The notes below the pieces were generated by a model. That model searched no databases. It saw nothing but the letters and a program-made list of their open reading frames with translations, and was not told where the DNA came from. Below, one piece after another: positions 10,591-29,564 of a stretch of 64,000 bases of DNA. The number at the start of each line of letters is the position of its first letter. Position 1 is the stretch's first letter. Made by a program: the position numbers and the translations under genes. Source of the DNA: Streptomyces peucetius (GTDB taxonomy: Bacteria; Actinomycetota; Actinomycetes; Streptomycetales; Streptomycetaceae); assembly GCF_025854275.1 (NCBI RefSeq), contig NZ_CP107567.1, forward strand, positions 6,572,001 to 6,636,000, given 5' to 3'.

Positions 10591-11859
10591 TCAGCGGCCC
10601 ACCGGGTCGCCGTGGGCGCCGTCGCCGGGGCACACCAGGGCGAGATGACCCCCGTCGTTGAGCGGTGTGGGCACCTTCAGGGTCGTGACCGGCGCGGATC
10701 CGCCGGCTGCCGCGTCGGCGTCAACCAGATGGATCTCGCCATGACCCCCACGGGTGACCGCGACAAGGGGCGAGCCGGGTGACGCGGCGATCGCCCGGCG
10801 CTGCACCCCGTCCCACGGTGTGCCGCCGGGCCTGGGTGCCCCGTCCATCGCGGGCAGCGGCAGCCGGGCCGTGACGTGCGGGTCGCCCGTGCCGGTGCGC
10901 AGCAGGACCAGTTCGTCGCCGTCCGGGTGCACCCGGGCGAACGCGGTGTGGCGCGCGGCGAGGGCGAGGCGGAAGACCAGGCCGGGGCCGAGCGGGAGCC
11001 GCCCGGTGCGGCCCGAGTCGAGGTCGTGCCACCACGCGTCGTTGGTCCACTCCGGCCAGCGGGCGGGCTCCGCCGGCCCGCCGCGTACGCACGACCAAAG
11101 CGTCCGGCGCGCCGGGTCGAGACGCAGGTAGTAGCCCCGCCCGTCGCCGGCCCACGACAGTGGTTCCTCCGCGACCAGGAGGCCGCCGCCGTCGAGCCGG
11201 GCGCGCCGGACGCCCGAGCCGGTGGCCGCGAACAGCCGCCCGGTGAGCGGGTCGTGGGCGTCGCCGTGCCCGTCGTCGTCGGCGAGCGGCAGCTCGGCCG
11301 CGGGTTCCGCGGGCGGGCAGGCGGGCGCGGCGGTCATCAGGCCGGCATGCCGGTAGGCCGTGAGCGACCCCGGTTCGCGATGGCGCAGGACGACCAGCGC
11401 GTCGTCCGGTCCGTCGCCGCCGAGGACGGTGACGCCCGGCTCGCCGGTACGGGTGCGGACCCTGACCGAGCGCGGTCCGCCCGCTGCCTTGAGGTCCACG
11501 GCGGTCAACAGGTCGCTCCACGGTTCCCAGTTGCGGCCCAGCCCGGTGGTGACGGCCAGCAGCCGCCCCGCCGGATCGGCCGCCAGGTGCTCGGCCGGGA
11601 CGGCGACCGGCACCGCCGCCTCCACGAGGGGCCGGCCGGCGCCGGGGCCGTAGGGGTCGAGGACCACGAGCTCGCCCGCGAGGTCGTCGACGAAGGCGGT
11701 GCGGTCACCGGGCAGGGCGAGGAATCCGGCGTGCTCGGCGAGGTGGCGCCCCTCGACGCGGCCGGTCTCACGGCCGCCCGGCAGCTCCAACACGTGGACG
11801 ACACCCGCCACTTGGTCGGCGACGAGGAGGCGTGGCGGTGGGGCGGGGTGCTGGGGCAC
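10591..11859 (-). CDS. Beta-propeller protein divergent from the metal importer, probably co-regulated
   Basis: A 422-residue protein starting with GTG at 11859, 5 nt downstream of GGAGA. Repeats such as LLVADQVAGVVHVLELPGGRETGRV, ELVVLDPYGPGAG and AVTRGGHGEIHLVDAD indicate a seven-bladed propeller similar to quinoprotein or YVTN families. There is no signal peptide or lipobox. Its start lies 42 bp from the 15-bp Fur-family-like box at 11902, on the opposite side from the importer operon, so metal status may control both. Possible roles are a metal or metallophore-binding protein or an intracellular scaffold. The His and Asp residues in ADDDGHGDAHD, mid-protein, could bind metal, but this is inference. 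Confidence 0.55.
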   Translation of the reverse strand: MPQHPAPPPRLLVADQVAGVVHVLELPGGRETGRVEGRHLAEHAGFLALPGDRTAFVDDLAGELVVLDPYGPGAGRPLVEAAVPVAVPAEHLAADPAGRLLAVTTGLGRNWEPWSDLLTAVDLKAAGGPRSVRVRTRTGEPGVTVLGGDGPDDALVVLRHREPGSLTAYRHAGLMTAAPACPPAEPAAELPLADDDGHGDAHDPLTGRLFAATGSGVRRARLDGGGLLVAEEPLSWAGDGRGYYLRLDPARRTLWSCVRGGPAEPARWPEWTNDAWWHDLDSGRTGRLPLGPGLVFRLALAARHTAFARVHPDGDELVLLRTGTGDPHVTARLPLPAMDGAPRPGGTPWDGVQRRAIAASPGSPLVAVTRGGHGEIHLVDADAAAGGSAPVTTLKVPTPLNDGGHLALVCPGDGAHGDPVGR

Positions 11860-11901
11860 GGCGGTCTCCGGAAGGTGGGGGCGATGGGCAAGAAGGCTTG
11901 T

Positions 11902-11916
11902 TGGTAATGATTATCA
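11902..11916. promoter_or_regulatory. Fur-family (Zur-like) 7-1-7 operator between the propeller gene and importer operon
   Basis: TGGTAATGATTATCA is a 15-bp hyphenated palindrome with one mismatched pair. It agrees at 12 of 15 positions with the TGAAAATGATTTTCA-type sequence bound by actinobacterial Zur and related Fur proteins. A weak candidate promoter for the importer (TTGTTG at 11898 and AACAAT at 11922, 18-bp spacing) would place the box in the spacer. Which metal is sensed cannot be proven from sequence; a DtxR-type iron box would look different. Confidence 0.6.
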
Positions 11917-11960
11917 TGTAGAACAATCAGGTCGGAGTCCTGGGCAGGGCCCCGGCCGGA

Positions 11961-12014
11961 ACCAGCCGAACCAGCCGAACCAGCCGAACCAGCCGAACCA
12001 GCCGAACCAGCCGA
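11961..12014 (+). repeat. Six perfect tandem copies of a 9-bp unit in the importer 5' leader
   Basis: The unit ACCAGCCGA is repeated six times without error and followed by a partial ACCGAA. It ends 15 nt before the start codon of the binding-protein gene and just upstream of its ribosome site (AAAGAG). Such arrays change copy number by slippage, which here would alter leader length without touching the reading frame. Confidence 0.9.
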
Positions 12015-12029
12015 ACCGAAAGAGATGCG

Positions 12030-13010
12030 ATGTCGCGCAGAGCGCTGAGGACCGTCCGCCGCTGGGCGGCCGCCGCCGTCATGGGAACCCTGCTGGCCGG
12101 ATGCGGCACACCCGCGGACGACCCGGAGGACAAACCGGCCGCCGCCGGACCGAAGGTCGACGTACGGGTCGAACCCATCACCGCCGCACGGAAGATCACC
12201 GACGCCGCGGGCGTCACCGTGGAGACTGCCGCACCGCCCCGGAGGGTCGTCTGCCTGGTCGCCCTCTGCGACGACATGCTCGCCGAACTCGGCATGACAC
12301 CCGTCGCCACCAACTCGGGACTGCTCGCCCACCCCGGCTTCCTCGGCAAGGAGAAGGCCGCGAAGATCCCCGTCGTACCCGGCGGGTTCCTCAGCCCCGA
12401 GGCGGAGGCGATCCTCTCGCACGAGCCGGACCTCGTCATCGGCCTCGAGGACACCCACGGCAAGCTCGCTCCCGCACTGAAGGGCGCCACCGTCTTCTGG
12501 CCGGTGCAGCCCGAGAAGTGGCAGGACAGCGTAGGTTATCTGCGCGACCTCGCCGCGCTCACCGGCCGTACACAGCAGGGCGAGAAGGCGGAACGGGGCT
12601 TCCGGCAGAAGCTCGCGGACGCCGAGACCCGACCGAGCGACCTCACCTCCCTGATCATCTTCGGCAGCGACGAGAACTTCGGCGTCGCCACCCCCGGCAA
12701 CGACGTCGCCGCCGGCCTCCTGCCGAAGCTCTCCCGCTACCCCTGGAAGAGCCGCGGCGTCGAAGGCACGTACAGCATGGAGGAGATCCTGGCGCGCGAC
12801 GTCGACGTGCTCTTCGTGGAGACCCTGTCCTTCGGCGGACCCTCGGACGGCAAACTGTCCGACAAGCTCGCCGAGAACCCCCTCTGGTCGCAGATCCCCG
12901 CCGTGAAGAACGGCAAGGTGTACGAGGTCGACTCCGAGGTGTGGGCCAAGGGACGCGGCACCCGGTCCCTGTCCCTCGTTCTCGACGAGGCCACGGCCAA
13001 GCTCAAGTGA
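12030..13010 (+). CDS. FecB/BtuF-type substrate-binding lipoprotein for a metal chelate
   Basis: A 326-residue protein starting with ATG at 12030, 5 nt after AAAGAG. A lipoprotein signal with twin-Arg-like residues and the lipobox LLAGC (Cys25) anchors it on the outer face of the membrane. The rest has the class III binding-protein layout: RRVVCLVALCDDMLAELGMTPVATNS, HEPDLVIGLED, and a long linker helix before IIFGSDENFGVATPG and DVDVLFVET. Class III proteins bind siderophores, haem, cobalamin or metal complexes. The first gene of an importer operon coupled by GTGA/ATGA overlaps to two permeases; a Fur-family-like box lies about 115 bp upstream. Confidence 0.8.
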   Translation: MSRRALRTVRRWAAAAVMGTLLAGCGTPADDPEDKPAAAGPKVDVRVEPITAARKITDAAGVTVETAAPPRRVVCLVALCDDMLAELGMTPVATNSGLLAHPGFLGKEKAAKIPVVPGGFLSPEAEAILSHEPDLVIGLEDTHGKLAPALKGATVFWPVQPEKWQDSVGYLRDLAALTGRTQQGEKAERGFRQKLADAETRPSDLTSLIIFGSDENFGVATPGNDVAAGLLPKLSRYPWKSRGVEGTYSMEEILARDVDVLFVETLSFGGPSDGKLSDKLAENPLWSQIPAVKNGKVYEVDSEVWAKGRGTRSLSLVLDEATAKLK

Positions 13011-13999
13011 CCCGCCGGCAAACGGGGGTGAACCGCCGACTCGCCGCCGCAGGCGGGCTGCTGGGCGCGGTGGCGCTGTGCGCCCTGTGCTTCGGCACAC
13101 CGTACGTACCGCCGCTCGGACTTCCCGCCGCCGTCGGCGGCGACGGACTCGCCGGCCTCGTCGTCACCGAACTGCGGCTGCCCCGGCTCGTCCTGGCGCT
13201 GGTCGCGGGCGCCTGCCTGGGCGCTGCCGGACTGGTGCTCCAGGAGGCGCTGCGCAATCCGCTCGCCGTCCCCGAGATGCTCGGCGTCTCCTCCGGCGCC
13301 GCGCTCGGCGTCGCGGCGCCACTCGTCCTCGCCGTGTCCGTACCGCTCGCCGTGCAGCCGCTGCTCGCCCTCGGCGGAGCCGCCGCCGGCGGCCTGCTGA
13401 CCCTGCTCGCCGCCGGGTTCGGGCGCAGCCCGACCGCCGTGCTGCTCACCGGCGCCGCGGTCGCCGCCGCACTGCAGGCGGCCCTCCTCGTCCTCATGGT
13501 GCTCGCCGACCAGCTCGACCTTCAGCTCATCTACCGCTATCTGCTGGGCAGTCTGTCCGCCCGCACCTGGCAGGACCTCTCCGGGCTCTGGCCGTGGCTC
13601 GCGGCCGCCCTTCCCGCGCTGGTGCTGTGCGCGCCGGTGCTGTCCGTGCTGCGGCTCGGCGACGACGACGCTCAGGCCCTCGGCGTCCGGGTGCGCCGCG
13701 CGCGGCTCGCCGCGCTCGCGATCTCCGTCGTCCTCATCGCGCCGGTCGTCGCGGTGTGCGGGCCGGTCGCCTGGGTCGGCTTCCTCGCACCCCACCTCGC
13801 CCGGCGGCTGAGCCCGCGGGCCGACGCGGTGCGATGGCTGCCGTGGTCGGCGGTGTGGGGTGCCCTGGTCGTGGCCTGCGCGGACCTCCCCGCCCGGCTC
13901 GCGCTGGCGCCCGTCGAGACACCGGTGGGCGCCTGGACGGCGCTGCTCGGCGTACCGGCGGGGGTCGCCCTCATGAGAAGAAGGGCGGCAGCGGCATGA
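13007..13999 (+). CDS. FecCD-family ABC importer permease (first subunit)
   Basis: The GTG at 13007 overlaps the preceding stop (GTGA) and gives 330 residues with 8-10 hydrophobic segments. Diagnostic FecCD motifs are present: LRLPRLVLALVAGACLGAAGLVLQEALRNPLAVPEMLGVSSGA near the N-terminus and GPVAWVGFLAPHLARRL near residue 265, the loop that contacts the ATPase. It forms a heterodimeric channel with the next gene product and imports the chelate delivered by the lipoprotein. It differs clearly in sequence from its neighbour, so the pair is not a recent duplication. Confidence 0.85.
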   Translation: MTRRQTGVNRRLAAAGGLLGAVALCALCFGTPYVPPLGLPAAVGGDGLAGLVVTELRLPRLVLALVAGACLGAAGLVLQEALRNPLAVPEMLGVSSGAALGVAAPLVLAVSVPLAVQPLLALGGAAAGGLLTLLAAGFGRSPTAVLLTGAAVAAALQAALLVLMVLADQLDLQLIYRYLLGSLSARTWQDLSGLWPWLAAALPALVLCAPVLSVLRLGDDDAQALGVRVRRARLAALAISVVLIAPVVAVCGPVAWVGFLAPHLARRLSPRADAVRWLPWSAVWGALVVACADLPARLALAPVETPVGAWTALLGVPAGVALMRRRAAAA

Positions 14000-15033
14000 G
14001 AGCCGTCATGACCCTCCCCGTACGGCGGTGGGCGCTTCCCCTGACCGCGCTGCTCGTCGTCGCCGTCGGCTGCGCCGACCTGGTGGCCGGGCGGGCACTG
14101 GGCACGGCCGACGTGTGGCAGGTCCTCGGCGGCGCCGGTGACCCGGCCGCGCGCCACATCGTGCTCCAGCTCCGGCTGCCCAGGGCACTGGTCGCACTCG
14201 TCGCCGGCGCGAGCCTCGGACTCGCGGGCATGGTCCTGCAGTCCGCCCTGCGCAACCCGCTCGCCGGACCCGAGGTCACCGGCGTCACCCCGGGCGCGGT
14301 GCTCGGCGCCGTGGCCGCCACCGGTCTCGGGATCGCGGGATGGCGGTCGCCGACGGCCGTGGTCGTCGCGGCGTGCGTCGGCGGGTTCGCGGGGGCGGGG
14401 CTGCTGTGGCTGCTGACCGGCCGCGAGAAACACGATCCCGCGCAGACGGCCGTGCACGGGGTGCTCGTGTCGGCGGTCCTGTCCGGGCTCACGGCGATGG
14501 TGCTGCTCGTCGCGCCCGGCGAACTCGGCAGCGTGGTGCAGTGGCTGGTCGGCTCCACGGAGGGGCGGGTGTGGCAGCACTGGGTGCTGCTGTGGCCCTG
14601 GGCGGCGGTGTGGGCCGTGGCGGCGTACGCGCTGGCCGCGCCGCTCACGCTGCTGCGCTGCGGTGACGAACAGGCCGCCGCGGCCGGTCTCGGCACCGGC
14701 CGCGCCCGCGTCGCCGCGCTCGTCTGCGCCGTCGCCCTGACGGCCGGGGCGGTCTCGGCGGTCGGCGCGCTGGGCTTCGTCGGACTGCTCGTCCCCCACC
14801 TCGCGTTCGCCGTCTTCGGCGCGGACCTCCGCCGCGCCCTGCCCGGCGCGGCGCTCCTCGGCGCGGCGGTCGTGACGGGCGCCGACGCGGGCGCGCAGTG
14901 GCTTTCGCGGGCGCTGGCCGGTGCGCTGGACATGGACCGGCTGTCCGTCCCGACGGGCGCGCTGACGACGTGCGTCGGAGCGGCGCTGCTGCTCGGGGTG
15001 GCGCGGCGCGCGGGGGCGGGGGCGGGGGAGTGA
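13996..15033 (+). CDS. FecCD-family ABC importer permease (second subunit)
   Basis: A 345-residue polytopic membrane protein whose ATG overlaps the previous stop (ATGA). The FecCD signature LQLRLPRALVALVAGASLGLAGMVLQSALRNPLAGPEVTGVTPGA and the coupling loop GALGFVGLLVPHLAFAVFG are both intact. It pairs with the product of 13007-13999. Its cognate ATPase gene is not adjacent: a 650-bp repeat-rich region intervenes before 15681, so the ATPase may be transcribed by read-through or separately. Confidence 0.85.
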   Translation: MRAVMTLPVRRWALPLTALLVVAVGCADLVAGRALGTADVWQVLGGAGDPAARHIVLQLRLPRALVALVAGASLGLAGMVLQSALRNPLAGPEVTGVTPGAVLGAVAATGLGIAGWRSPTAVVVAACVGGFAGAGLLWLLTGREKHDPAQTAVHGVLVSAVLSGLTAMVLLVAPGELGSVVQWLVGSTEGRVWQHWVLLWPWAAVWAVAAYALAAPLTLLRCGDEQAAAAGLGTGRARVAALVCAVALTAGAVSAVGALGFVGLLVPHLAFAVFGADLRRALPGAALLGAAVVTGADAGAQWLSRALAGALDMDRLSVPTGALTTCVGAALLLGVARRAGAGAGE

Positions 15034-15680
15034 CGGTGGGGTGGGCGGGTGCGGGCGGGGTCCGCTGCGCGGGGCCTGTCCCCCCTCCCCGCCCCTTCCC
15101 GAAACCGGGGCTCCGCACCGGGGCTCTGCCCCCGGGACCCACCGGGGATCCGCCCCCGGGTTCCGCACCCGGGCTCCGCCCCCAGGCCCCACCGGGGAGC
15201 CGCACCGGGGCTCCGCCCCCAGGCCCCACCGGGGAGCCGCACCGGGGCTCCGCCCCGGGCCCCACTGGGGATCCGCCCCCGGGCTTTGCCCCGGGCCCCA
15301 CTGGGGATCCGCCCCCGGGCTTTGCCCCGGGCCCCACTGGGGATCCGCCCGGGCCCCCGGTACCGCGCTTCGCGCGGTGGCCTCAAACGCCGGCCGGGCT
15401 TGGTATGCCGCGCAGCGGCACACCAGCCCCGGCGGGCGGGACCGGCATGTTCCAGCCTCGCCGGCGTTTGAGACGCGGGGTTCGGGGCGGAGCCCCGACG
15501 GGACCGGCAAGTACCAGCCCTGCCGGCGTTTGAGGCGCGGGGGGCCGGGGGCGGAGCCTCCGGTTACGGGAAGGGGCGGGGTGGGGGACAGGCCCGCCGC
15601 AGGCGGTCACCGGCCCGCGACGCCGGGCCCGACACGTACGCAATCGGCGGCCCCTGGGCCGCCCCGTCGAGAGGACGCGC
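15034..15680. repeat. GC-rich intergenic repeat element A with inverted ends and 36-bp tandem repeats
   Basis: No credible gene lies here. The element is bounded by complementary arms CCCCGCCCCTTCCCG (15087-15101) and its reverse complement (15567-15581), each extended by G/C runs. Inside are degenerate CCGGGGCTCCGCCCC units, three near-identical 36-bp tandem copies starting at 15261, 15297 and 15333, and opposed copies of the CTCAAACGCCGG motif (15382 region; reverse form near 15465 and 15525) common between Streptomyces genes. A related element occurs at 25291-26109. It separates the second permease gene from the ATPase gene and may terminate or attenuate transcription. Confidence 0.8.
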
Positions 15681-16544
15681 ATGACTACAGCCACCACCCC
15701 GAGCGCCGCCGGCGCCGCCGCCGAGAACGCCGCGCGGGCCGGGACGTTGCGGGCGGAAGGAGTTCGGTTCGGGTACGGCGGGCGGGAGGTGCTCGCGGGG
15801 GTCGATCTCGACGTCGGCGCGGGCGAGTGCGTCGCGCTCGTCGGGCTCAACGGCTGCGGCAAGAGCACCCTGTTGCGGCTCTGCGCCGGGCTGCTGAGGC
15901 CCGCCGCGGGCCGGGTGAGCCTCGGCGGGGACGATCTCGCCCGGCTCTCCCGCAGGTCCACGGCCCGCCGCGTCGCCCTGCTGCACCAGTCGGCCCCGGC
16001 CGTCCCCGGCATGACGGTGCGGCAGCTGGTGCGCCAGGGGCGCTACGCGGCGCGCGGCCCGCTCGGCATGCTGCGGGACGGTGACGACGCCGTCTGTTCG
16101 CGGGCCATGGCCGACGTGGGCGTCGCCCCGTGGGCCGACCGTCCTGTCGACTCCCTCTCCGGCGGCGAGCGGCAGCGCGTGCGGCTCGCCATGGCCCTCG
16201 CGCAGGACACCCGCGTACTGCTGCTCGACGAGCCGACGACCTATCTCGACCTGCGCCACCAGCTCGAGGTCATGCAGACGGTGGTCCGGCTCCGTGAGGA
16301 GCGCGGCCTGACCGTGGTCATGGTGCTGCACGACCTCGGGCACGCGGCCCGGTTCGCCGACCGGATCGTGGCGCTGCGCGCGGGCAGGGTGGCCGCCGAC
16401 GGGCCGCCCGCCGAGGTGGTCACGCCTGTTCTGCTCGCCGAAGTCCTTGGTGTGGCAGGGCGGGTGGGGCTCGATCCGGAGGGCGGGTGGCCGGTGTGTT
16501 ACCCGGATCACCCTCTGCCGGTCACCGAACCTCTTGCGAAATGA
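15681..16544 (+). CDS. FecE/BtuD-type ABC importer ATPase
   Basis: A 287-residue protein beginning with ATG at 15681 after GAGAGGACGCGC. Walker A (GLNGCGKST, residues 55-63), Q-loop (LLHQSAP), signature LSGGERQR, Walker B (VLLLDEPTTYLD) and switch His (VLHDLGHAARF) are complete, and the spacing is that of siderophore and B12 importer ATPases. It should power the FecCD pair encoded upstream. Its last codons overlap the Fur-family-like box at 16542 that controls the RiPP promoter, which ties the importer and the peptide operon together physically. Confidence 0.85.
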   Translation: MTTATTPSAAGAAAENAARAGTLRAEGVRFGYGGREVLAGVDLDVGAGECVALVGLNGCGKSTLLRLCAGLLRPAAGRVSLGGDDLARLSRRSTARRVALLHQSAPAVPGMTVRQLVRQGRYAARGPLGMLRDGDDAVCSRAMADVGVAPWADRPVDSLSGGERQRVRLAMALAQDTRVLLLDEPTTYLDLRHQLEVMQTVVRLREERGLTVVMVLHDLGHAARFADRIVALRAGRVAADGPPAEVVTPVLLAEVLGVAGRVGLDPEGGWPVCYPDHPLPVTEPLAK

Positions 16545-16563
16545 AAATCATATTCATTAGTGT
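16534..16563 (+). promoter_or_regulatory. Promoter of the RiPP operon
   Basis: TTGCGA (16534-16539) and TAGTGT (16558-16563) are separated by exactly 18 bp, a good match to the Streptomyces housekeeping consensus TTGACR/TAnnnT. The predicted transcription start near 16569-16570 falls at the foot of a 5' hairpin. The -35 lies inside the end of the ATPase gene, and the operator at 16542-16556 fills the spacer. Confidence 0.65.
16542..16556. promoter_or_regulatory. Fur-family (Zur-like) operator inside the RiPP promoter
   Basis: TGAAAATCATATTCA is a 7-1-7 palindrome with one mismatched pair. Ignoring the central base it matches the TGAAAATGATTTTCA-type Zur box at 13 of 14 positions. Lying between -35 and -10, it would block RNA polymerase when the metal-loaded repressor binds, so the operon should be on under metal starvation. 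AT-rich sequence of this kind stands out in such GC-rich DNA. Confidence 0.7.
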
Positions 16564-16568
16564 TCGGT

Positions 16569-16593
16569 GTGCCGCCGGCCGGTCCGGCGGCAC
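16569..16593 (+). other. 5' leader hairpin of the RiPP transcript
   Basis: GTGCCGCCGG pairs perfectly with CCGGCGGCAC around a 5-nt loop, right at the predicted 5' end of the mRNA and 34 nt before the precursor start codon. A 5'-terminal stem can stabilise mRNA. It is too far from the ribosome site to hide it. Confidence 0.55.
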
Positions 16594-16627
16594 AGTCCGC
16601 AACACCCGACGAATGGAGAGCCAACTC

Positions 16628-16765
16628 ATGGAGCAGTACAAGGTGTTCAGTCCGATCGCCGAGCAGGGCCAGCTCGCCCACCTGTCCGCCACCCACTCCA
16701 ACGCGCTCGTCGAGAACCCCTTCGACGACAACGCCGCCGCCGTCGAGACCGACAGCGACAAGTAA
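16628..16765 (+). CDS. RiPP precursor peptide, 45 residues
   Basis: ATG at 16628 with GGAGAG 7 nt upstream. The peptide starts MEQYKVFSPIAEQGQ and continues through LAHLSATHSNALVENP to an acidic tail ending in ETDSDK. It has no cysteine, two His (18 and 23), five Ser (8, 20, 24 and 43 plus none in the leader start) or fewer depending on cleavage, two Thr (22 and 41) and one Asn-Pro-Phe-Asp-Asp patch. The Ser/Thr/His cluster at 18-24 is the best candidate core for YcaO-made oxazolines or other backbone changes. It sits immediately before the E1-like, peptidase, YcaO and dehydrogenase genes, and an attenuator-like hairpin follows it, as expected for a precursor needed in excess. Confidence 0.75.
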   Translation: MEQYKVFSPIAEQGQLAHLSATHSNALVENPFDDNAAAVETDSDK

Positions 16766-16774
16766 GCCCCCGCC

Positions 16775-16807
16775 GGGCCCGTCCGGAACGCCGTTCCGGA
16801 CGGGTCC
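16775..16807 (+). terminator. Attenuator-like hairpin after the precursor gene
   Basis: CCCGTCCGGAACG (16778-16790) and CGTTCCGGACGGG (16792-16804) form a 13-bp perfect stem, extendable to about 16 bp. It begins 9 nt after the precursor stop and ends about 40 nt before the next start. It probably causes partial termination or stabilises the short precursor mRNA, giving more peptide than enzyme. Confidence 0.7.
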
Positions 16808-16845
16808 GGCCCGCAGCGCAGACCCCGAACCCCTCAGGAGAACCC

Positions 16846-17634
16846 GTGGCCACCGTGCGACTCGCCCCCGGCGTCGCCCTTGTCACCGTCCCCGGCCACG
16901 GCCTCGCCGTCCGGACCCCGGACGGCGCGTTCCTCCGCGTCGACACCGGCGCGGCGGACCAGGACGCGCTCGTGGCCCAGCTGACCCGTGGCTGCGGCGA
17001 CGACACGGAACTCGCCCGCCTGACCGCCGCCTTCGCCGACGCGGGTTTCCTGGCCCGGACGGACGACATCCGCGCGCCCCTCAACGGACGCACCGTCGTC
17101 CTCCTCGGCGACCCGGTCCTCACCGAGCCGCTCGCCCGCTTCGTCCGTGCCGAGGGCGGCGAGGTGCGCCATGCCGGGCCCGACGACCTAGGGGGCACCG
17201 GTCCGTCGACGGCCGTGGTCTGGTGCCTGGACTCGCCCGTCCCGAACGGCCTGTGGGACGAGGCCGACCGACTGCCTGCCCGGGGCACCTGCTGGCTGCG
17301 CTGCCACCGCGAGGGCGCCACGGTCTGGACCGAGCCGTTCGCTGCCGCGACAGGCGACGTCACCTCCGCGGACGTACGGCTCCGGCGGCTCGCCGCGACC
17401 CCGGCCCACCGCGAACTCGCCGCCTACTGGGCGGGTTCACGCACCGACGACACGGGCCCCGCCCACAACGCCGCCTCGGCCGCCCTGACGGCCTCCCTGA
17501 TCACCGCCGATCTCATCGCCTGGGCGGCGGGACGGCCCGGGGGCCGCAGACTGCGCCGTGTCGACGTGCGCGACCTCACGGTCACCGAGCACCCCGTGCT
17601 GCCGGTGCCGGCCGTCGCACCGCTCGACCGATGA
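16846..17634 (+). CDS. E1-like leader-peptide-binding protein (TOMM cyclodehydratase partner)
   Basis: GTG at 16846 with AGGAG 5 nt upstream; 262 residues. The N-terminal 90 residues (VRLAPGVALVTVPGHGLAVRTPDGAFLRVDTG, then a helix ending in FADAGFLAR) look like the small winged-helix RiPP-recognition element. The remainder is a ThiF/E1-like fold without a recognisable ATP site or zinc cysteines, ending with DVRDLTVTEHPVLPVPAV, typical of the ocin/TOMM ThiF-like group. Such proteins capture the leader and deliver it to the YcaO enzyme, which here is a separate polypeptide at 19121. Its stop overlaps the next start (ATGA). Confidence 0.75.
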   Translation: MATVRLAPGVALVTVPGHGLAVRTPDGAFLRVDTGAADQDALVAQLTRGCGDDTELARLTAAFADAGFLARTDDIRAPLNGRTVVLLGDPVLTEPLARFVRAEGGEVRHAGPDDLGGTGPSTAVVWCLDSPVPNGLWDEADRLPARGTCWLRCHREGATVWTEPFAAATGDVTSADVRLRRLAATPAHRELAAYWAGSRTDDTGPAHNAASAALTASLITADLIAWAAGRPGGRRLRRVDVRDLTVTEHPVLPVPAVAPLDR

Positions 17635-19124
17635 GGGCCGCGACCGTCCCCGTACCGGGCGCCCGGCTGGCAACCGCCGTGCAACTGCCGGACGGTGACG
17701 GCCCGTTCCCGGCCGTCGTGATCCGTACCCCGTACGGACAGGTCGGCCACCGCGACGAGGCCCGCGCCTGGGCGGCCCGCGGCTTCGCCGCGGTCGTCCA
17801 GGACGTACGCGGCCGGCACGGGTCCACCGGTGACTGGCACCCCTACCGGCACGAGGAGGCCGACAGCGCCGCGACGCTCCGCTGGGTCCGCGGCCACCGC
17901 TGGTCCGACGGGCGCGTCGTCGCCGCCGGGGCGTCGTACGCCGCGCACTGCGCACTCGCGGCCACGGCGGCCGTCGAGTCGGCGGACCGGCCCGACGCGG
18001 TGATCGCCGCGGTGCCCGCCCTCGGCCTCGCCGAAACGGCCCGCGAGGCCGGCGGCGTCGAACGGCTCGCGGCCCGCGCGGGCTGGTGGGCCGCGCACGG
18101 CGACCGGCCCGACTCCGACGCCACCGCCCTCGACAAGGCCCTCGCCCGCGACCCCCGGCTCCTCGAACATCTCCCCCTGACCACCTTCCCCGAGCGCCTC
18201 GGCCGCGCCCTGCCGTCCTGGCCGGCGCTCTGGGACGCGTCCCGCCGGCCCCGTCCAAGGCCCCGTGCGCCCCTCCCGCTCCTCGCGGTCGGCGGCACTC
18301 GCGACCCGTTCGCCGACGACACCCTGCGGCTCTGGGCGGAGTGGGCGGGCCCCGCCCGGCTGCTGCTCGGCCCGTGGGGGCACGGCCTGACCTCCGAACC
18401 GGCCCCCGAGGCCCGCCCGGGACACCGGATCCGGCTCGGCGAGCTGTACGTGACCTGGGCACGGGCCGCCCTCACCGGCGCTCTTGGCCGCGAACGCCGC
18501 GGTGCGGTCGCGCTCGGCGACAGCGAGCACTGGTACCCGGCCGCGCCGGACACGGGAGAGCGGACCACCTGGCCGTTCGGCGTACCGAGCGGCCTGCGGC
18601 TCCTGCGGGGCGGCACGTTCGTCGCCGATCCCCAAAGCCCCGTACGGTCCGACGACTTGAACGTGCCGACCGGTGAGGCGCCCGACCGCGCCCTGCTCGT
18701 CACGCCGCCCCTGCCCCGGCCCCTCGACCTGCTCGGGACGGCGGAGGCCCGGCTGTGCGCCACCGCGGACACCCCCACCGCCGACTGGGCGGTACGCGTC
18801 GTCGCCCTCGATCCGGCCGGCCGCGCGGCGCCGCTCGCCACCGGCGTCGTCCGCAGGTCCGGCCCGCCCGGCGCACCGGCCGCGTTCCGCGTGCCGCTCG
18901 GCCCGGTCGCGCGCCGGCTGCCCGCCGGGACCCGGCTGCGGGTGGAGGTGGCCGGGCACCACTTCCCGGCCCACGCCCGCAATCCGCACACCGGTGAGGA
19001 CCCGGTCCGCGCCACCCGCCTCATCGCCTCCCGGCGGACCGTACGCACGGCCGGCAGCGGCCTTCTGCTGCCCGTCGTACGCGGCAGCCGGCCCGTCGAT
19101 CCCGTACAGGAGACCCGCAGTTGA
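17631..19124 (+). CDS. CocE/NonD (S15) family hydrolase, candidate leader or tailoring peptidase
   Basis: A 497-residue alpha/beta hydrolase, ATG overlapping the previous stop. The family signature is clear: RTPYGQVGHRDEARAWAARGFAAVVQDVRGRHGSTGDW at the N-terminus, nucleophile elbow GASYAAH (Ser102), GGTRDPF (Asp225) and GPWGHG (His251). The C-terminal jelly-roll domain (about 340-490) is also present. S15 enzymes cut after Xaa-Pro or hydrolyse esters and amides. The precursor carries Ser-Pro at 8-9 and Asn-Pro at 30-31, so trimming at proline is conceivable. An amide or ester tailoring step is the alternative. Full overlap coupling to both neighbours supports a role in maturation. Confidence 0.75.
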   Translation: MRAATVPVPGARLATAVQLPDGDGPFPAVVIRTPYGQVGHRDEARAWAARGFAAVVQDVRGRHGSTGDWHPYRHEEADSAATLRWVRGHRWSDGRVVAAGASYAAHCALAATAAVESADRPDAVIAAVPALGLAETAREAGGVERLAARAGWWAAHGDRPDSDATALDKALARDPRLLEHLPLTTFPERLGRALPSWPALWDASRRPRPRPRAPLPLLAVGGTRDPFADDTLRLWAEWAGPARLLLGPWGHGLTSEPAPEARPGHRIRLGELYVTWARAALTGALGRERRGAVALGDSEHWYPAAPDTGERTTWPFGVPSGLRLLRGGTFVADPQSPVRSDDLNVPTGEAPDRALLVTPPLPRPLDLLGTAEARLCATADTPTADWAVRVVALDPAGRAAPLATGVVRRSGPPGAPAAFRVPLGPVARRLPAGTRLRVEVAGHHFPAHARNPHTGEDPVRATRLIASRRTVRTAGSGLLLPVVRGSRPVDPVQETRS

Positions 19125-20488
19125 CCACTACCCTCACCCTCGACAGCCTGGTGGACCCCGTCTGCGGGCTGATACGCGGCGTCGAGCCCGTGCCGCACCC
19201 GGCGGGTGCGCCGCCCCGCTACACCGCCATGACCGCGGACGTCGGTGACGCACGCCGCTTCGGGGCGTGGCCGGCCGACCGGGTGTCCCTCGGCACGACC
19301 TTCGGCGATCCGGAGGGCGCGCGGATCGCCGCCGTCGCCGAGGCCGTCGAACGCTACTGCGGCAACCGGCTGCCCCCGCCGGGACACCCCGGCGCACCGC
19401 GCAGGGCAACCGCCGCCGAACTCGTGGCGGAGGGCGGCACCGTGTACGGGCCGGGCGAGCTGCCCGCCTACGCCGACTGGCAGTACGCACGTCCCGGGTT
19501 CGAGTACCGCCGTCTCACCGCGGACACTCCGGCGCTGTGGGCCCGCGGGCAGGAGAACGGCGAGGAGTGCTGGGCGCCCGTCGCGCTCACCCACCTCAAC
19601 TGGCGTCAGGGCGACCTGCGGTCCCTGCCCCGTACGCACCATCTCAACTACGCCGGGATCGCCACCGGCCAGGGCTTCGACGACGCCGTGGAGCGAGGGC
19701 TGCTGGAAGTCGTCGAACGCGACGCGCTCGAACTGTGGTGGCATCTCGACGGCCCCGCCCGCGGCATAGACCCCGCCTCCGTCCCCGGTCTCACCCGCGA
19801 CCTCGACGGCTGTGACCTCGAGGTCTCCATCGTGGAGATGCCCTCCGAGTTCGCGCCGTGCATGGCGGCCCTCGTGCACGACCCGGCACGCGGCATCCAC
19901 GCCGCCGGTTTCGCCTGCCGTTACGACCCGGCGGAGGCCGCCCGCAAGGCCGTCCTGGAGGCGGTGCACACCTGGGTCTTCACCCAGGGCGCCACCGACG
20001 CCGACGGCTGGGTCTTCCGCGCGATCGACGCCGGGATGCTGGCACGCGGCCTCTACCTCGACCACCGGGCCGACCGCCGCTACCTCGACGACTGCGGCAC
20101 CGACTTCCGTGCCGTACGCGACCTGGGCGCGCACGTCCAGGTATGGCTCGACCCGCGGATGGCGCCGCTGGCCGGCCGCTTCACCCGTCCGGCGCTCGGC
20201 GTGGTCCCGGTCGACGAGGTGGCGGCGGGCAGCAGGGCCGTGCTCGACGAACGCCTGGCGGCGGGCGGGCACCGGGTCATCACCCTCGATCTGACCACGG
20301 AGGACGTCGCGGAGACGCCGCTGCGGGTGGCGCGTGTGCTCGTCTCCGGGCTCGTCCCCAACGCGCCGGCCGCGTTCGCCTACCTCGGCTGCCCGCGCTT
20401 CGGGCACGCGGCGCGGGCACGCGGCTGGCGCACCGAAGTCCCGCAGTCCGCGAGCGACTTCACGCTCGCACCGCCCCCGCACATGTGA
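19121..20488 (+). CDS. YcaO-domain RiPP-modifying enzyme (cyclodehydratase subunit)
   Basis: A 455-residue protein whose TTG start overlaps the previous stop (TTGA). YcaO ATP/Mg sites are visible: ExxER with Glu74, Glu77 and Arg78 (AEAVERYCG), and GLLEVVERDALELWW with Glu196, Glu199, Arg200 and Asp201, followed by ARKAVLEAVHTW. It activates backbone amides with ATP so that Ser, Thr, Cys or another nucleophile can attack, giving azolines, thioamides or amidines. The C-terminus ends LAPPPHM, a proline-rich tail like the PxPxP end of azoline-forming members. No thioamide helper (TfuA) is present. With no Cys in the precursor, oxazolines or an amidine are the likely products. Confidence 0.85.
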   Translation: MTTTLTLDSLVDPVCGLIRGVEPVPHPAGAPPRYTAMTADVGDARRFGAWPADRVSLGTTFGDPEGARIAAVAEAVERYCGNRLPPPGHPGAPRRATAAELVAEGGTVYGPGELPAYADWQYARPGFEYRRLTADTPALWARGQENGEECWAPVALTHLNWRQGDLRSLPRTHHLNYAGIATGQGFDDAVERGLLEVVERDALELWWHLDGPARGIDPASVPGLTRDLDGCDLEVSIVEMPSEFAPCMAALVHDPARGIHAAGFACRYDPAEAARKAVLEAVHTWVFTQGATDADGWVFRAIDAGMLARGLYLDHRADRRYLDDCGTDFRAVRDLGAHVQVWLDPRMAPLAGRFTRPALGVVPVDEVAAGSRAVLDERLAAGGHRVITLDLTTEDVAETPLRVARVLVSGLVPNAPAAFAYLGCPRFGHAARARGWRTEVPQSASDFTLAPPPHM

Positions 20489-20495
20489 GGCACCG

Positions 20496-21845
20496 ATGGA
20501 GTCGTCCGTCACCCGAGCGCTGACCCTGGCCCGTTCCGCGCAGGCCCCCGGCCCGGACTTCCCGGCCGGTCCGGCGAGCGTGCCCCTGCCGGGGGAGGCG
20601 CTGCCCGTCCCGGCCCGGCTCGACCGGATGCTGCGGCTGTCCCTCGCGGGCCGCAGGCTGCGGCCCGTCCCGTCGGCCGGCGCACTCCACCCCGTCGACA
20701 CGTACCTGCTCGTCGGGGCGGGCTGCGGGCTGCCGCCGGGCGTCCACGTCTACGACCCGGCGCGCCACCGCCTGCACCGGTGCGGCCCCGCCCCGTGCCC
20801 GGCGCCGCCGGGTGCCGTCGCCGTCCTGGGCGTCACCGCCCGCCGCACCGTGTCGCACTACGGCCACCGTGCCTGGCCCCTGGTGCTCCTGGACGTGGGC
20901 CACGCGGCGGCCGCGCTCGCCCTGGCCGGGGCGCACGCGGTGTGCCTGGACGCCGACGGCGGGCTGCTGTCGGGCGCGAGCGGCGCACCGGTGGCCCTGG
21001 CCGCCGTCCGGCTGACGGCCGACGCGGCGCCGGACGGCCTCGTCCGCTGGGCGGCCCGTGCGACCGGAGGGCGGATCCCGGCCCCGGAGGGGCCCGAGGT
21101 CCTGCGCACGGCCGTGGCGGTCCTCGCCGAACTCGCCGCCGCCGGCGGGAAGTCCGGCACCTGGCGCGCTGCCACGGGCCCCCTCCTGCCGGACTCCGTG
21201 CTGCTGTCGCGGCGCAGCGCGCCCCCCGGGTTCCACGACCTGCCGCCCCACGAGGCGCTGGCGCGTGTCCTGGCGGCGGCGCGGGCCGCCTCCCCGGACG
21301 GCCTCGGCTGGACCCTCGCGGTGAGCGGCCCCCGCCCCGGCCTCCTGACGGCCCCCACACCCGCGCCGCCTGCCGAGTCCACCGTGCCCGGTTCCGCCGC
21401 CGCGCCGGCGCACCGCACCGCCCCGGCCGACGGCTCCCTGCCACCGCTGCGCCGCCTCGGGTCGAGTCCGGCCGATCCGTTCGGGACCGCGCCGGCCGCC
21501 GGGACCGTGCCACCGCTGCGCCGCCTCGCGTCGGGCGACGTGCTGCCGACCCTCGCCCACTGGGCCGCCGGACAGGGCTGGATCGCCGGAGCCGGAGCCG
21601 TGCTCCTCGCCCACGGCTGCCCCTCCGGCGCCACGGCGGCCCAGGTGCGGCACTGCCACCTCGCCGCCGGACACGGCGTCGCCCACGCCCAGGCTGCGGC
21701 GACCGCCCTCGGCATCCACTCCCGGCCCGTCGGCTCCTGGCAGGGCGCCGACCTCGGGGCCGCGCTCGGCGGACCGGCCGGGCGCGACTGGGTCGTGCAC
21801 GGCCTGGCCCTGGGCCGTACGACACAAGGAGACGAACCGTCATGA
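20496..21845 (+). CDS. SagB-type FMN-dependent dehydrogenase (azoline oxidase-like)
   Basis: A 449-residue protein starting with ATG at 20496, 7 nt after the YcaO stop. The nitroreductase-fold signature of SagB proteins, RRLRPVPSAGALHPVDTYLLV (near residues 50-70), and a second FMN-site segment (VSHYGHRAWPLVLLDVGHAAAALALAGA) are present. A Pro/Ala-rich linker of about 60 residues follows, with two near-identical LPPLRRL / VPPLRRL repeats. The last 130 residues (TLAHWAAGQGWIAGAGAVLLAHG) look like a degenerate second nitroreductase half. SagB enzymes oxidise azolines to azoles with FMN. I do not see the usual catalytic Lys-Tyr pair, so activity is uncertain. Confidence 0.7.
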   Translation: MESSVTRALTLARSAQAPGPDFPAGPASVPLPGEALPVPARLDRMLRLSLAGRRLRPVPSAGALHPVDTYLLVGAGCGLPPGVHVYDPARHRLHRCGPAPCPAPPGAVAVLGVTARRTVSHYGHRAWPLVLLDVGHAAAALALAGAHAVCLDADGGLLSGASGAPVALAAVRLTADAAPDGLVRWAARATGGRIPAPEGPEVLRTAVAVLAELAAAGGKSGTWRAATGPLLPDSVLLSRRSAPPGFHDLPPHEALARVLAAARAASPDGLGWTLAVSGPRPGLLTAPTPAPPAESTVPGSAAAPAHRTAPADGSLPPLRRLGSSPADPFGTAPAAGTVPPLRRLASGDVLPTLAHWAAGQGWIAGAGAVLLAHGCPSGATAAQVRHCHLAAGHGVAHAQAAATALGIHSRPVGSWQGADLGAALGGPAGRDWVVHGLALGRTTQGDEPS

Positions 21846-23584
21846 TGCTCCACCCGGAGCTGCTGCGCGCCGCGCGCACCGCGCGCCGCCCCCTGCTCAC
21901 GGCCACCGCGCTCCTCGCGGCCGTCGCGGCGACCCACCTCGCCCAGGCCGTGCTGCTCGCCCTCGTCCTGGCCCGGATCGCCCGCGGCGACACCGGCGGA
22001 GCGCCGTTGCCGCTGCTGCTCGGCGCGGTCCTCACGGCCGTGCTCGTACGCGCCGTCCTCGGCCGCCTCCAGCGGCGTGTCGCGGTGAGCGCCGGAGCCG
22101 CCGTGCGGACCGGTCTGCGCGACCGGCTGCTCGAACGCCTCGGCCGCACGGGCCCCCCGCAGCACGCGGAGGCCCGCGCCGGCGCCGTACGCGCCACCCT
22201 CGTCGACGGTGTCGAGGGGGTCGACGCGTACATCTCCCGCTATCTGCCGCAGCTGCTGATCACCTGCGCCGTGCCGCCACTGCTGCTGATCGCGGTGGCG
22301 GCCGTCGAACCGTGGACCGTCCTCGCCCTCGGACCCGCCCTCGTCGTCGCGCTGTTCGCGCCGCGCTGGTGGGACAAGCTGCTGGAACGCCGGGGACAGC
22401 AGCACTGGGGCGCCTACGAGGCCCTGTCCGCGGACTACCTCGAGGCGCTGCAGGGCATGCCCGCCCTGCGCGCCGCCGGTGCGGTGGGCCGTACCAGGGC
22501 GCGCCTGGAGGAGCGGTCGCGGGCGCTGCACCGGGCGACGGTCGCCAAACTCCGCGTCTCGCTCGTCGACACCGGGATCACCGACCTCGCCGTGCAGGGC
22601 GGCACGGTCGCCGCCGCACTCGTCGCCTGCGCGTCCGCCGCGTCGGGGCACGCGACGCCCACGGCCACCTACCTGGTCCTGATGCTCGCCTCCGAATGCT
22701 TCCGGCCGGTACGGGACCTGTCCAGGGAGTGGCACTCGGGATACCTCGGGGTGTCGGCCGCGGACGGGATCGCCGAGCTGCGCACCGCGGAGGGGGGCGT
22801 CCCCGACACCGGGCGGACCGTCGCCGCCTGGCACGCGGCTCCCGAAGTCCGCTTCGAGGACGTGCACTTCACGCATCCCGGCGGTCGCGGTCCCGCCCTG
22901 GGCGGCGTGAGCTTCACCGCACGCCCCGGCCGGGTGACGGCGGTCGTCGGCCCGTCCGGGGCCGGCAAGTCCACACTGCTCGGCCTGCTGCTGCGGCGCG
23001 CGGACCCGGACGAGGGCCGGGTACTCGTCAACGGCGTCGACACCACCGCGTACACGCTCCCGTCCCTGCGGCGGGGGATCGCGGTCGTCTCGCAGGAGAC
23101 GTACCTCTTCCACGCGACCGTCGCCGAGAACCTGCGCCTGGGCGCCCCCGGCGCGAGTGACACGGCGCTGCACGACGCGGCCCGCACCGCCGGCATCCAC
23201 GACGAGATCGTCGGGCTGCCCGACGGCTACGACACCCTGGTCGGCGAGCGCGGTGCGACGCTCTCCGGCGGACAGCGCCAACGGCTGGCCCTGGCGCGGG
23301 CGTTGCTCGCCGACGCGCCGGTCCTCGTGCTCGACGAGGCGACCAGCGCGGTCGACGAGCATCGCGAGGCCCGCATCGTCGAAGAGCTGCTGCGGGCCGC
23401 CCGGGGCCGTACATGCCTGGTCGTCGCGCACCGGCTCGACTCCGTACGCGAGGCCGACACCATCGTCGTCCTCGACGGCGGACGGGTGGACGCCGTCGGC
23501 GGCCACGCCGGCCTGCTCGCGGGCGACGGCGTGTACGCGCGCCTCGTCGCGGCCGGACACACCGACACGGAAAGGGCCGCATGA
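21842..23584 (+). CDS. ABC half-transporter (membrane domain + ATPase), CydD-like, first of a pair
   Basis: A 580-residue protein, ATG overlapping the SagB stop. The N-terminal 320 residues hold six hydrophobic segments of the type I exporter fold. The ATPase half has Walker A GPSGAGKST, Q-loop SQETYLF, signature LSGGQRQR, Walker B VLVLDEATSAVD and switch VVAHRL, all canonical. It pairs with the next gene (ATGA overlap) as a heterodimer, as in CydDC-type systems. Within this operon the best role is export of the mature peptide. No peptidase domain is fused, so leader removal must happen elsewhere. Confidence 0.8.
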   Translation: MMLHPELLRAARTARRPLLTATALLAAVAATHLAQAVLLALVLARIARGDTGGAPLPLLLGAVLTAVLVRAVLGRLQRRVAVSAGAAVRTGLRDRLLERLGRTGPPQHAEARAGAVRATLVDGVEGVDAYISRYLPQLLITCAVPPLLLIAVAAVEPWTVLALGPALVVALFAPRWWDKLLERRGQQHWGAYEALSADYLEALQGMPALRAAGAVGRTRARLEERSRALHRATVAKLRVSLVDTGITDLAVQGGTVAAALVACASAASGHATPTATYLVLMLASECFRPVRDLSREWHSGYLGVSAADGIAELRTAEGGVPDTGRTVAAWHAAPEVRFEDVHFTHPGGRGPALGGVSFTARPGRVTAVVGPSGAGKSTLLGLLLRRADPDEGRVLVNGVDTTAYTLPSLRRGIAVVSQETYLFHATVAENLRLGAPGASDTALHDAARTAGIHDEIVGLPDGYDTLVGERGATLSGGQRQRLALARALLADAPVLVLDEATSAVDEHREARIVEELLRAARGRTCLVVAHRLDSVREADTIVVLDGGRVDAVGGHAGLLAGDGVYARLVAAGHTDTERAA

Positions 23585-25290
23585 ACCCCGAACGAGGCGC
23601 CCTGCGCGCCCTGCTGCCCGTGCTCGCGGCGCACCGCGCCATGACCCTGCGCACCTTCTGCGCCGCGCTCGCCGGCCAGGCGTCGCTCGTCGCACTGGTC
23701 ACCCTCACCGCCCACACCGTCGGCACGGCCGTCGTCGAGCGGCGGGCCCCGGGCGCCGGCACGGTCGCCGCCCTCCTCGCGCTCGTCGCGGTCCGTGCCC
23801 TCGCGACCTGGCGGGAGATGGACCTCTCGCACGACCTCGCCTACCGGGTCCTCGCGGAACTGCGCATCCGCGTCTTCGACGGCCTCGCCCGCAGCGCGCC
23901 CGCGCGCATCGCGGGACGGCGCAGCGGGGACCTGGCGTCGGCGGCGCTCGGGGACGTGGAGGCGCTGGAGTTCTTCTACGCCCACGCCGTGGCGCAGCTC
24001 GCCGCCTCCGGCGTGGTGTTCGGGGGCGGAACGGTCGCCCTCGGGCTGCTTGACCCCTGGCTGCTGCTCGCCGTGCTGCCCGTCGCGGCCCTGCTCACGC
24101 TCGCCCCGGTGCTGGAGTCACGCGGCCGGGCGGCCCGCGGAGCCCGCACCCGTGCGGCGGCCGCCGACCTGTCGGCGGAGACCGTCGAGACGGTCGACGG
24201 ACTGCGGGAACTGCTGACGTTCGGCGCGCTCGACGCCCGGCGCGAACGGCTCCGTGCCCACGGCAGGCGGCTCGGCGACGCCCAGCGTGCCGAGCAGGCA
24301 TGGGAGGCCGACGCCTCGGCCGTGCGTGACCTCCTCGTCGTCGTGGCCGTCCTCGGAGTCGTCCTCGCCGCGGCGCACACGTTCGCCGGCGCGTGGGCTC
24401 CCGCCGCGATGGCGCTCGCCCTCGGCGTGCTCGCGCCCGTCGCAGACTCGGCCGCCGCACTCGGCCAGGCGGGCGGGCTGCGGGCGGCGGCGGCGCGGGT
24501 GGGCGCGGCCGTACGGGCCCCGGCGGGTGCCCCCGAGCCCGCCGCGCCCCGGGGCCTGCCCACGGGACCGCTCGGTCTGCGGCTGCGGGACGTCCGCTTC
24601 GACTACGGCGGCCGCGCCGTGCTCGACGGGGTGGACCTGACGGTCCGGCCCGGCGAGACGCTCGCCCTCGTCGGCGTCTCCGGCGCGGGCAAATCGACGT
24701 GCGCGCACCTGGTGGCCCGGTTCTGGGACCCGGCGTCGGGCACGGTCGAACTCGTCCCGGAAACCGGCCCGCCGGTCGACCTGCGCGACTTGGCCGAGGC
24801 CGACCTGCGGGCCGCGGTGGCCGTCGTCGGCCAGGACGCGCCGCTGTTCCACGGCACCCTGGCCGACAACCTCCGCCTCGCCTCGCCGACGGCGACAGCG
24901 ACGGACGACGAACTGGCCGCCGTCGCCCGCCGCACGGGCGTCGACCGCATCGCCGACGGCTACGACACCCTGGTCGGCGAGCGCGGCACCACCCTCTCGG
25001 GCGGCCAGCGCGCCCGCATCGCCCTGGCCCGCGCGCTGCTGACCCGCCCGCGGGTCCTCGTCCTGGACGAGACGACGGCGAACCTCGACACCGAGGGCGA
25101 CGCCGCGGTCTCCGCGGCGCTCAGGGACGGCTCCCCGTCCCGTACGACCCTGCTGATCGCCCACCGCCCGTCGACGATCCGCCGCGCGGACCGGATCGCG
25201 GTGCTGGAGTCGGGGCGGGTGGTGCAGACGGGCACGTGGGATCAACTGACGGAGCAAGGGGGCGCGTTCGCCCGCGTCCTGACGCGCTGA
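23581..25290 (+). CDS. ABC half-transporter (membrane domain + ATPase), CydC-like, second of a pair
   Basis: A 569-residue partner of the preceding gene, overlapping it by 4 bp. Six hydrophobic segments lie in residues 15-290. The ATPase domain has Walker A GVSGAGKST, signature LSGGQRAR, Walker B VLVLDETTANLD and switch IAHRPSTI. The Walker B Glu is intact (DET) and no site is obviously dead, although the signature ends RAR instead of RQR. Last gene of the RiPP operon; transcription runs into repeat element B. Confidence 0.8.
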   Translation: MNPERGALRALLPVLAAHRAMTLRTFCAALAGQASLVALVTLTAHTVGTAVVERRAPGAGTVAALLALVAVRALATWREMDLSHDLAYRVLAELRIRVFDGLARSAPARIAGRRSGDLASAALGDVEALEFFYAHAVAQLAASGVVFGGGTVALGLLDPWLLLAVLPVAALLTLAPVLESRGRAARGARTRAAAADLSAETVETVDGLRELLTFGALDARRERLRAHGRRLGDAQRAEQAWEADASAVRDLLVVVAVLGVVLAAAHTFAGAWAPAAMALALGVLAPVADSAAALGQAGGLRAAAARVGAAVRAPAGAPEPAAPRGLPTGPLGLRLRDVRFDYGGRAVLDGVDLTVRPGETLALVGVSGAGKSTCAHLVARFWDPASGTVELVPETGPPVDLRDLAEADLRAAVAVVGQDAPLFHGTLADNLRLASPTATATDDELAAVARRTGVDRIADGYDTLVGERGTTLSGGQRARIALARALLTRPRVLVLDETTANLDTEGDAAVSAALRDGSPSRTTLLIAHRPSTIRRADRIAVLESGRVVQTGTWDQLTEQGGAFARVLTR

Positions 25291-27798: not shown

Positions 27799-27993
27799 GT
27801 CGTCGCCGCCGATCTGTCTCGTTGTTGCCGGTACTGGCCGAAGACCCGTGGCCATGGTTTCCAGGGGGAAACGGTGAGGTTGCTGATCTCCGCCTTTCGT
27901 TCGAATCTACAAGACGAGGGAGGCGACCAGCCAACTCCTTCGGTGTTTCGGTGACTGCACCGGCCGGATCGCGGCTTGTGTACTGGACCACAT

Positions 27994-28014
27994 CGCATGA
28001 ACAGCGCATGAACA
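27994..28014. promoter_or_regulatory. Direct repeat CGCATGAACA in the pucR-xdh divergent region
   Basis: Two identical 10-bp copies start 11 bp apart, so they face the same side of the helix, 68 bp before the first xanthine dehydrogenase gene. PucR-type or other dimeric regulators could bind here. No known consensus is matched. The 283-bp region shows no other clear element. Confidence 0.35.
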
Positions 28015-28081
28015 AGTCGAGGGCCGGTCGTCCAGGGCCCGTGGCGACGAACGGCCCCGATTGAGAAGAAGAGAGCCACCC

Positions 28082-29562: not shown

Positions 29563-29564
29563 CC

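Follow-up and report, generated by a model that had tools for sequence, protein, structure and literature searches.

A candidate Zur-regulated streptamidine cluster in Streptomyces peucetius and its possible role in zinc acquisition

Introduction

What is a ribosomal peptide for when its genes come with an importer of their own? The question is raised by a stretch of 64,000 nucleotides from Streptomyces peucetius (RefSeq assembly GCF_025854275.1, contig NZ_CP107567.1, positions 6,572,001 to 6,636,000; hereafter the window), which lies in a genome of 8.05 Mb in one contig. Between positions 12030 and 25290 of the window the forward strand encodes an importer, a precursor peptide, the enzymes of a ribosomally synthesised and post-translationally modified peptide (RiPP) pathway and an exporter, arranged in that order. 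An original prediction had described 11860-25290 as a FecBCD-type importer joined to a YcaO/E1-like/SagB RiPP operon with an S15 peptidase and an ATP-binding cassette (ABC) exporter, the whole forming a metallophore system under Zur-like control. Profile matches and gene positions confirm all of these components (Table 1). The precursor, its family and amiX, a gene divergent at the first of two regulatory boxes, are identified here in addition.

By precursor profile and gene order the cluster is a member of the known streptamidine (ami) RiPP family. It is not new, because the precursor AmiA falls in the NCBIfam streptamidine family NF040714 (69.8 bits, cut-off 40) and the genes follow the ami order (Russell et al. 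2021, PMC8442711); a new RiPP class was ruled out by the same precursor assignment. The gene set around the precursor is complete, comprising amiB, amiC, amiD, amiE, amiF1-F4 and amiT1/T2. The ami cluster of S. albidoflavus J1074 has the precursor family, the HLSATH core, the gene order and the upstream amiX in common with it, and streptamidine-type clusters are reported from more than 230 species (PMC8442711). The original prediction's remark that YcaO-based metallophores are hardly described thus has to be given up: the same cluster was published as that of streptamidine, and metal import was proposed there from the fecBCDE-like genes (PMC8442711). That proposal was not borne out in the same study. 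Zur does not appear in the main text of that paper (PMC8442711). New here are the Zur-type, zinc-linked regulation of streptamidine clusters, as read from their promoters, and the likeness of AmiX to AztD.

Results

Two sites in the window carry the regulatory reading. A search for TGAWAATNATTWTCA with up to three mismatches in the 64 kb returned exactly two, against 0.03 expected, and two sites occurred in 0 of 100 shuffles. These are the two 7-1-7 Fur-family-like boxes that had been pointed out at the importer operon and the RiPP promoter, and they are the only such sites present. The original prediction had also proposed a scan with an actinobacterial Zur matrix; against the S. coelicolor motif tGaNNatSatNNtCa, defined by chromatin immunoprecipitation on microarrays (ChIP-chip; PMC5472717), the box before amiA fits exactly and the box between amiX and amiF1 has one mismatch. 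An iron-box reading was dropped, as nothing in the window came within six mismatches of a DmdR iron-box consensus.

The boxes recur across the family. NF040714 had matches in 39 of 295 genomes sampled from the genus and in 19 of 394 sampled from the class, and a first locus set of 57 stretches around such matches was compared, with the precursor aligned in 56. We counted as strict a match to the Zur ChIP motif with at most one mismatch, 20-200 bases before the gene (an interval of 181 bases), and as looser a match to TGRNAAYNNTTNYCA with one mismatch. Among the Streptomyces loci of this set, the window included, a strict box lies upstream of amiA in 39 of 43 cases and upstream of amiF1 in 38 of 41; L120, in which no precursor aligned, was left out, as were L081 (contig end) and L086 (no amiF1) from the amiF1 count. 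Two other hits in 731 kb set the background at 0.0005 per interval. In other families the strict box stands at amiA in 6 of 14 loci and the looser one in 13 of 14 (background 0.0015), the sole miss being L118, a cluster copy that lies close to a contig end and has a partial amiX. A second set made up of the best 80 named loci, from which 7 (amiA) and 13 (amiF1) were left out for missing gene or upstream sequence, gave 67/73 at amiA and 65/67 at amiF1 (background 0.0007). The two sets overlap, 20 amiA upstream regions being identical; 93 of the 110 distinct regions have the strict box. With the motif reversed the counts were 0/57 and 0/43 at amiA and amiF1, respectively. Both boxes are present in S. 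albidoflavus NRRL B-1271 (L214), of the same species as the characterised strain. When AmiD proteins were clustered at 90% identity, 40 of the 52 clusters had at least one member with a strict amiA box, and the amiA box is found even where amiF4 is not upstream and gene order is altered.

The same kind of box marks zinc genes. In the genome that contains the window, TGRNAATNATTNYCA with at most one mismatch occurs at ten sites and its reversed control at none. Two of the ten are the ami boxes. Judged from translations, others lie at znuA, with a weak FecCD (znuB-like) match and a Fur-family gene some 2-3 kb further, at an operon encoding zinc-free L31 and a COG0523 protein, at a second COG0523 gene, and at a gene for an SBP_bac_5-type binding protein (site 7556264, L003); the remaining four have no clear candidate gene. 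The four other FecCD loci of this genome are all more than 10 kb away from any such site. In family f17 a variant box, TGANAACCGTTNTCA, precedes amiA in four fetched clusters (L106, L107, L109, L111), and six f17 genomes contain it 13 times with none for the reversed control. Six of these sites are at ami clusters and two at genes for zinc-free ribosomal proteins, again from translations; znuA, an SBP_bac_5 protein gene, a non-ribosomal peptide synthetase (NRPS) gene and a FecCD gene have one each, and the site L175 has no assigned gene. This distribution looks like a Zur regulon. The fit to the ChIP motif, the conservation of the boxes and their recurrence at zinc genes uphold, at the level of sequence, the Zur-like control and the choice of zinc as the likely metal made in the original prediction, and we regard it as very likely that the cluster belongs to the Zur regulon.

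Two of the sites deserve mention in their own right. The SBP_bac_5-type gene has a Zur-type box in both lineages (L003, L170) and may encode a further Zur-controlled importer, perhaps that of another metallophore. The f17 Zur-type box of L177 (G640:C26:20286) lies at the start of the NRPS gene, which could belong to a zincophore cluster; the same genome also has an ami cluster.

Genes for export and dedicated re-uptake, namely the exporter halves and a FecCD importer, accompany the synthesis genes. Of the 128 loci that span 17 kb or more (some genomes counted twice), 125 have FecCD homologues. The three exceptions are a distant YcaO locus, L167, and two loci that end in FecE-like genes, L086 and L116. 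Outside Streptomyces, BLAST detected no relative of AmiF1 in 12 of 14 loci (L106-L111, L113-L118); FecCD genes, at 30-38% identity, are nevertheless present within the fetched stretch in 10 of those 12. Four Streptomyces loci of the second set (L219, L220, L221, L223) are missing amiF1-F4 and have a substitute FecCD and FecE set of 35-42% identity, 7-9 kb beyond the amiD start; the upstream end of this set carries a Zur-like box that differs from TGRNAAYNNTTNYCA by one mismatch. In L219 and L223 amiX is directly divergent from amiA. FecCD homologues also occur in 17 of 18 distant YcaO loci, a group in which many encode two YcaO enzymes. Related operons without importer and boxes, a finding that would speak against the original prediction, were in the main not encountered.

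The amiA box lies within a likely promoter that appears to overlap the end of amiF4 (Table 1). In an alignment of 71 amiA upstream regions the TA...T element behind the box is kept in many and the -35 region is variable. Across 63 second-set loci the box begins at the amiF4 stop codon in 11 and 16-22 bases ahead of it in 52. In S. albidoflavus, deletion of amiB, amiC, amiD, amiE or amiF1-F4 led to the loss of all pathway compounds, whereas production was only reduced without the exporter genes and continued without amiX (PMC8442711). Because the amiA promoter appears to overlap the amiF4 end, the published amiF1-F4 deletion may also have removed that promoter; caution is warranted, since loss of the promoter, rather than a requirement for import, may be the reason why the product disappeared.

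AmiX homologues occur in 54 of 57 loci, the window included. The structure model of AmiX (predicted local distance difference test score 90.5) has AztD as its top fold match, and in predicted fold AztD is the closest relative. Sequence comparison led no further: AmiX has no NCBIfam match up to E 0.01, the AztD family model included, and no Pfam match; a profile comparison with AztD gave E 0.05 and a probability of 1%; and of two sequence searches of the PDB one returned a single match at E 0.15 and the other none. Four histidines, H43, H91, H160 and H198, are invariant in 52 of 52 AmiX sequences and are candidate counterparts of the three pore histidines that bind zinc in AztD. AztD of the AztABCD system is exported (PMC6689063), whereas AmiX has no signal peptide, shares 13-16% identity with it in the aligned part and stands outside the AztD family model. 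An aztD gene lies beside amiX in 5 of 42 Streptomyces loci (query, the AztD protein of L269), and in these five an azt-type operon adjoins amiX. In two loci, L287 and L288, translations place ArsR-type regulators upstream of the azt-type operon and ami, together with a heavy-metal P-type ATPase (L287) or a ZnuA-like protein with a box (L288), so that these regions form islands of metal genes.

Table 1. Genes and regulatory elements of the ami cluster (window coordinates)
Feature	Position	Strand	Description
amiX	10591..11859	-	422 residues; AztD-like beta-propeller; divergent from importer operon
Box 1	11902..11916		TGGTAATGATTATCA; between amiX and amiF1
amiF1	12030..13010	+	siderophore-type substrate-binding lipoprotein; Peripla_BP_2
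amiF2	13007..13999	+	FecCD permease; PF01032, 236.9 bits
amiF3	13996..15033	+	FecCD permease; PF01032, 229.1 bits
amiF4	15681..16544	+	FecE-like ATPase; ABC_tran; top NCBIfam match FecE, under its cut-off
Likely amiA promoter	16534..16563	+	TTGCGA 16534-16539, 18-base spacer containing box 2, TAGTGT 16558-16563; predicted from sequence and alignment
Box 2	16542..16556		TGAAAATCATATTCA; before amiA; opens with the three bases of the amiF4 stop codon
amiA	16628..16765	+	streptamidine-family precursor, 45 residues, HLSATH core; NF040714
amiB	16846..17634	+	E1-like partner protein, assigned with help of position; TIGR03882 22.2 bits, below cut-off 36.9; no Pfam match
amiC	17631..19124	+	S15/CocE-type hydrolase; PF02129, TIGR00976
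amiD	19121..20488	+	YcaO enzyme; PF02624
amiE	20496..21845	+	SagB-like dehydrogenase; TIGR03605 57.5 bits, below cut-off 78.4; no Pfam match
amiT1	21842..23584	+	ABC exporter half; ABC_membrane and ABC_tran
amiT2	23581..25290	+	ABC exporter half; ABC_membrane and ABC_tran; open reading frame from 23575 in the profile search

Two long spacers, at 15034-15680 between amiF3 and amiF4 and at about 25291-26100, are GC-rich and contain repeated CCGGGGCTCCGCCCC-like units. Downstream of the cluster lie a PucR-type regulator (26110-27855) and, judged from translations, a xanthine-dehydrogenase-like operon (28061-31940); no sign of a link between these genes (26110-31940) and the ami cluster was seen.

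The precursors of L107, L108, L110, L115, L157, L158, L160 and L165 have two tandem leader-core-follower units, and in motif-A precursors the leader varies more than the SNALVENPF stretch behind the core. One genome (G371; L116, L117, L118) has three precursor copies with ami genes, one of them close to a contig end with amiX partial. L120 (G662) has a sub-threshold precursor match with an internal stop and importer-like and exporter-like genes, no YcaO gene being found nearby, and may be a decayed cluster. L246, titled Microtetraspora glauca, which may be a misnomer, has an ami cluster at Streptomyces-level identity (AmiD 76%).

Discussion

Our results suggest a model for how a streptamidine cluster could operate as a zinc-scavenging system. 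With ample zinc, Zn-Zur would occupy the amiA box, between the -35 and -10 elements, and the amiX/amiF1 box, and both promoters would be repressed. In zinc shortage, AmiA would be made, processed by AmiB, AmiC, AmiD and AmiE, for which the S. albidoflavus mutants establish a genetic need (PMC8442711), and exported via AmiT1/T2. Outside the cell the product may bind Zn(II), either in its isolated form, for which published tests were negative, or in a larger or oxidised one, perhaps via its histidines. The zinc complex would then be recaptured by AmiF1 and imported by AmiF2-F4, and AmiX, a seemingly cytosolic AztD-like propeller, would take over the zinc.

Its role as a metallophore, which the original prediction also proposed for the product, is something we infer. 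That it serves zinc acquisition seems fairly probable, and the reading as a whole, a Zur-regulon streptamidine cluster acting as a zinc-scavenging system, is a probable one. A wider proposal is offered tentatively and falls somewhat short of an even chance: streptamidine-family peptides might be ribosomal, YcaO-built zinc metallophores under Zur control across much of the family, with at least two distinct FecBCD-type importers and a cytosolic AztD-like unloader, the published streptamidine being an incomplete or degraded ligand. The amidine ring at the N-terminus of S. albidoflavus streptamidine was demonstrated by nuclear magnetic resonance, and AmiE is essential although streptamidine carries no oxidation, one possible reason named by the authors being that an oxidised portion of the peptide is lost (PMC8442711). 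Taken together, an essential AmiE, a product without oxidation and a part possibly lost leave room for a different true ligand.

Several observations weigh against a zinc-scavenging role. No metal binding was seen for streptamidine, either for iron by the chrome azurol S assay or by liquid chromatography-mass spectrometry with seven ions including zinc, and an amiD mutant had no phenotype under metal starvation (PMC8442711). The nearest solved chain to AmiF1 is YfiY (E 4.8e-19), so that the closest match is of siderophore type and not of zinc type. The amiF1-F4 deletion abolished the product, though lost zinc uptake alone should induce production. The boxes themselves are not universal. In the first set the strict box is absent at amiA in L098, L101, L103 and L104 and at amiF1 in L064, L067 and L087, and 10 of 43 Streptomyces amiA promoters are without the looser TGRNAAYNNTTNYCA box; in the second set it is absent at amiA in L212, L228, L230, L246, L247 and L255 and at amiF1 in L189 and L240, weaker sites of 2-3 mismatches lying nearby in each of these second-set cases. 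Among the distant YcaO loci (L151-L168, n = 18) the strict box lies close to the biosynthetic genes in only three (L151, L159, L161). Eight (L152, L156, L157, L158, L160, L162, L165, L168) have a weaker palindrome, read by eye, L164 has an atypical one, and six (L153-L155, L163, L166, L167) have no assignable box; some strict-motif hits in these loci are situated far from the cluster. Lastly, the Streptomyces loci are mutually related, so box conservation alone is not independent evidence.

An alternative that keeps the Zur control takes the product as a zinc-starvation peptide, for example a signal or an agent against competitors, which the importer would retrieve for sensing or immunity. In its favour stand the absence of metal binding and of a starvation phenotype, and the end of production on importer deletion (PMC8442711) is what an uptake feedback loop would predict. 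However, neither antibacterial nor antifungal activity of streptamidine was detected (PMC8442711), the importer belongs to a type related to siderophore uptake, and an AztD-like protein is encoded at the shared promoter region; we consider this alternative unlikely, while still one to reckon with. Far less probable is control by a different Fur-family regulator, which would bind the boxes in response to a metal such as iron, nickel or copper. Boxes of the 7-1-7 form are common to the Fur family, five Fur-family proteins are encoded in the genome containing the window and the FecBCD-like annotation of the importer denotes an iron type; yet the motif derives from Zur ChIP, the box type marks zinc genes both in this genome and in f17, the genome's other FecCD loci lie away from such sites and the window has no site within six mismatches of the DmdR iron box.

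Hardly credible, finally, is a reading of the boxes as functionless sequence that arose by chance or was inherited. The kinship of the Streptomyces loci could be held in its favour, as could the overlap of the amiA box with the end of amiF4, because coding constraint could then help to keep the box. Chance boxes are ruled out by the expectation for the window, by backgrounds of 0.0005-0.0015 per interval and by the zeros of the reversed motif; a strict box in at least one member of most AmiD clusters, and an amiA box that persists without upstream amiF4 and with changed gene order, also speak against this reading.

The zinc-scavenging reading finds partial parallels in known systems. Methanobactin, like the proposed ami product, is a ribosomal metal-binding peptide with its own import; it binds copper, is made by MbnB/MbnC rather than YcaO and is regulated in another way. 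Coelibactin of S. coelicolor is a Zur-repressed putative zincophore whose synthesis genes, as in ami, stand under a 7-1-7 box of the same motif (PMC5472717), but it is non-ribosomal (PMC3430247), with neither precursor peptide nor YcaO. In the open-access literature, preprints excluded, we found no YcaO-built metallophore linked to Zur and no YcaO-built zincophore, and nothing on point for a RiPP zincophore in Streptomyces or a RiPP in a Zur regulon.

Zur-type boxes at most of the related clusters compared here suggest that a widespread peptide of hitherto unknown purpose helps in zinc acquisition. The boxes point to a metal, to an inducing condition, zinc starvation, and to control genes, and because they name both metal and condition the question of function becomes directly testable. 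If the proposal is true, streptamidine and its relatives would constitute a class of ribosomal zincophores, and an AztD-like protein would be brought into metallophore handling.

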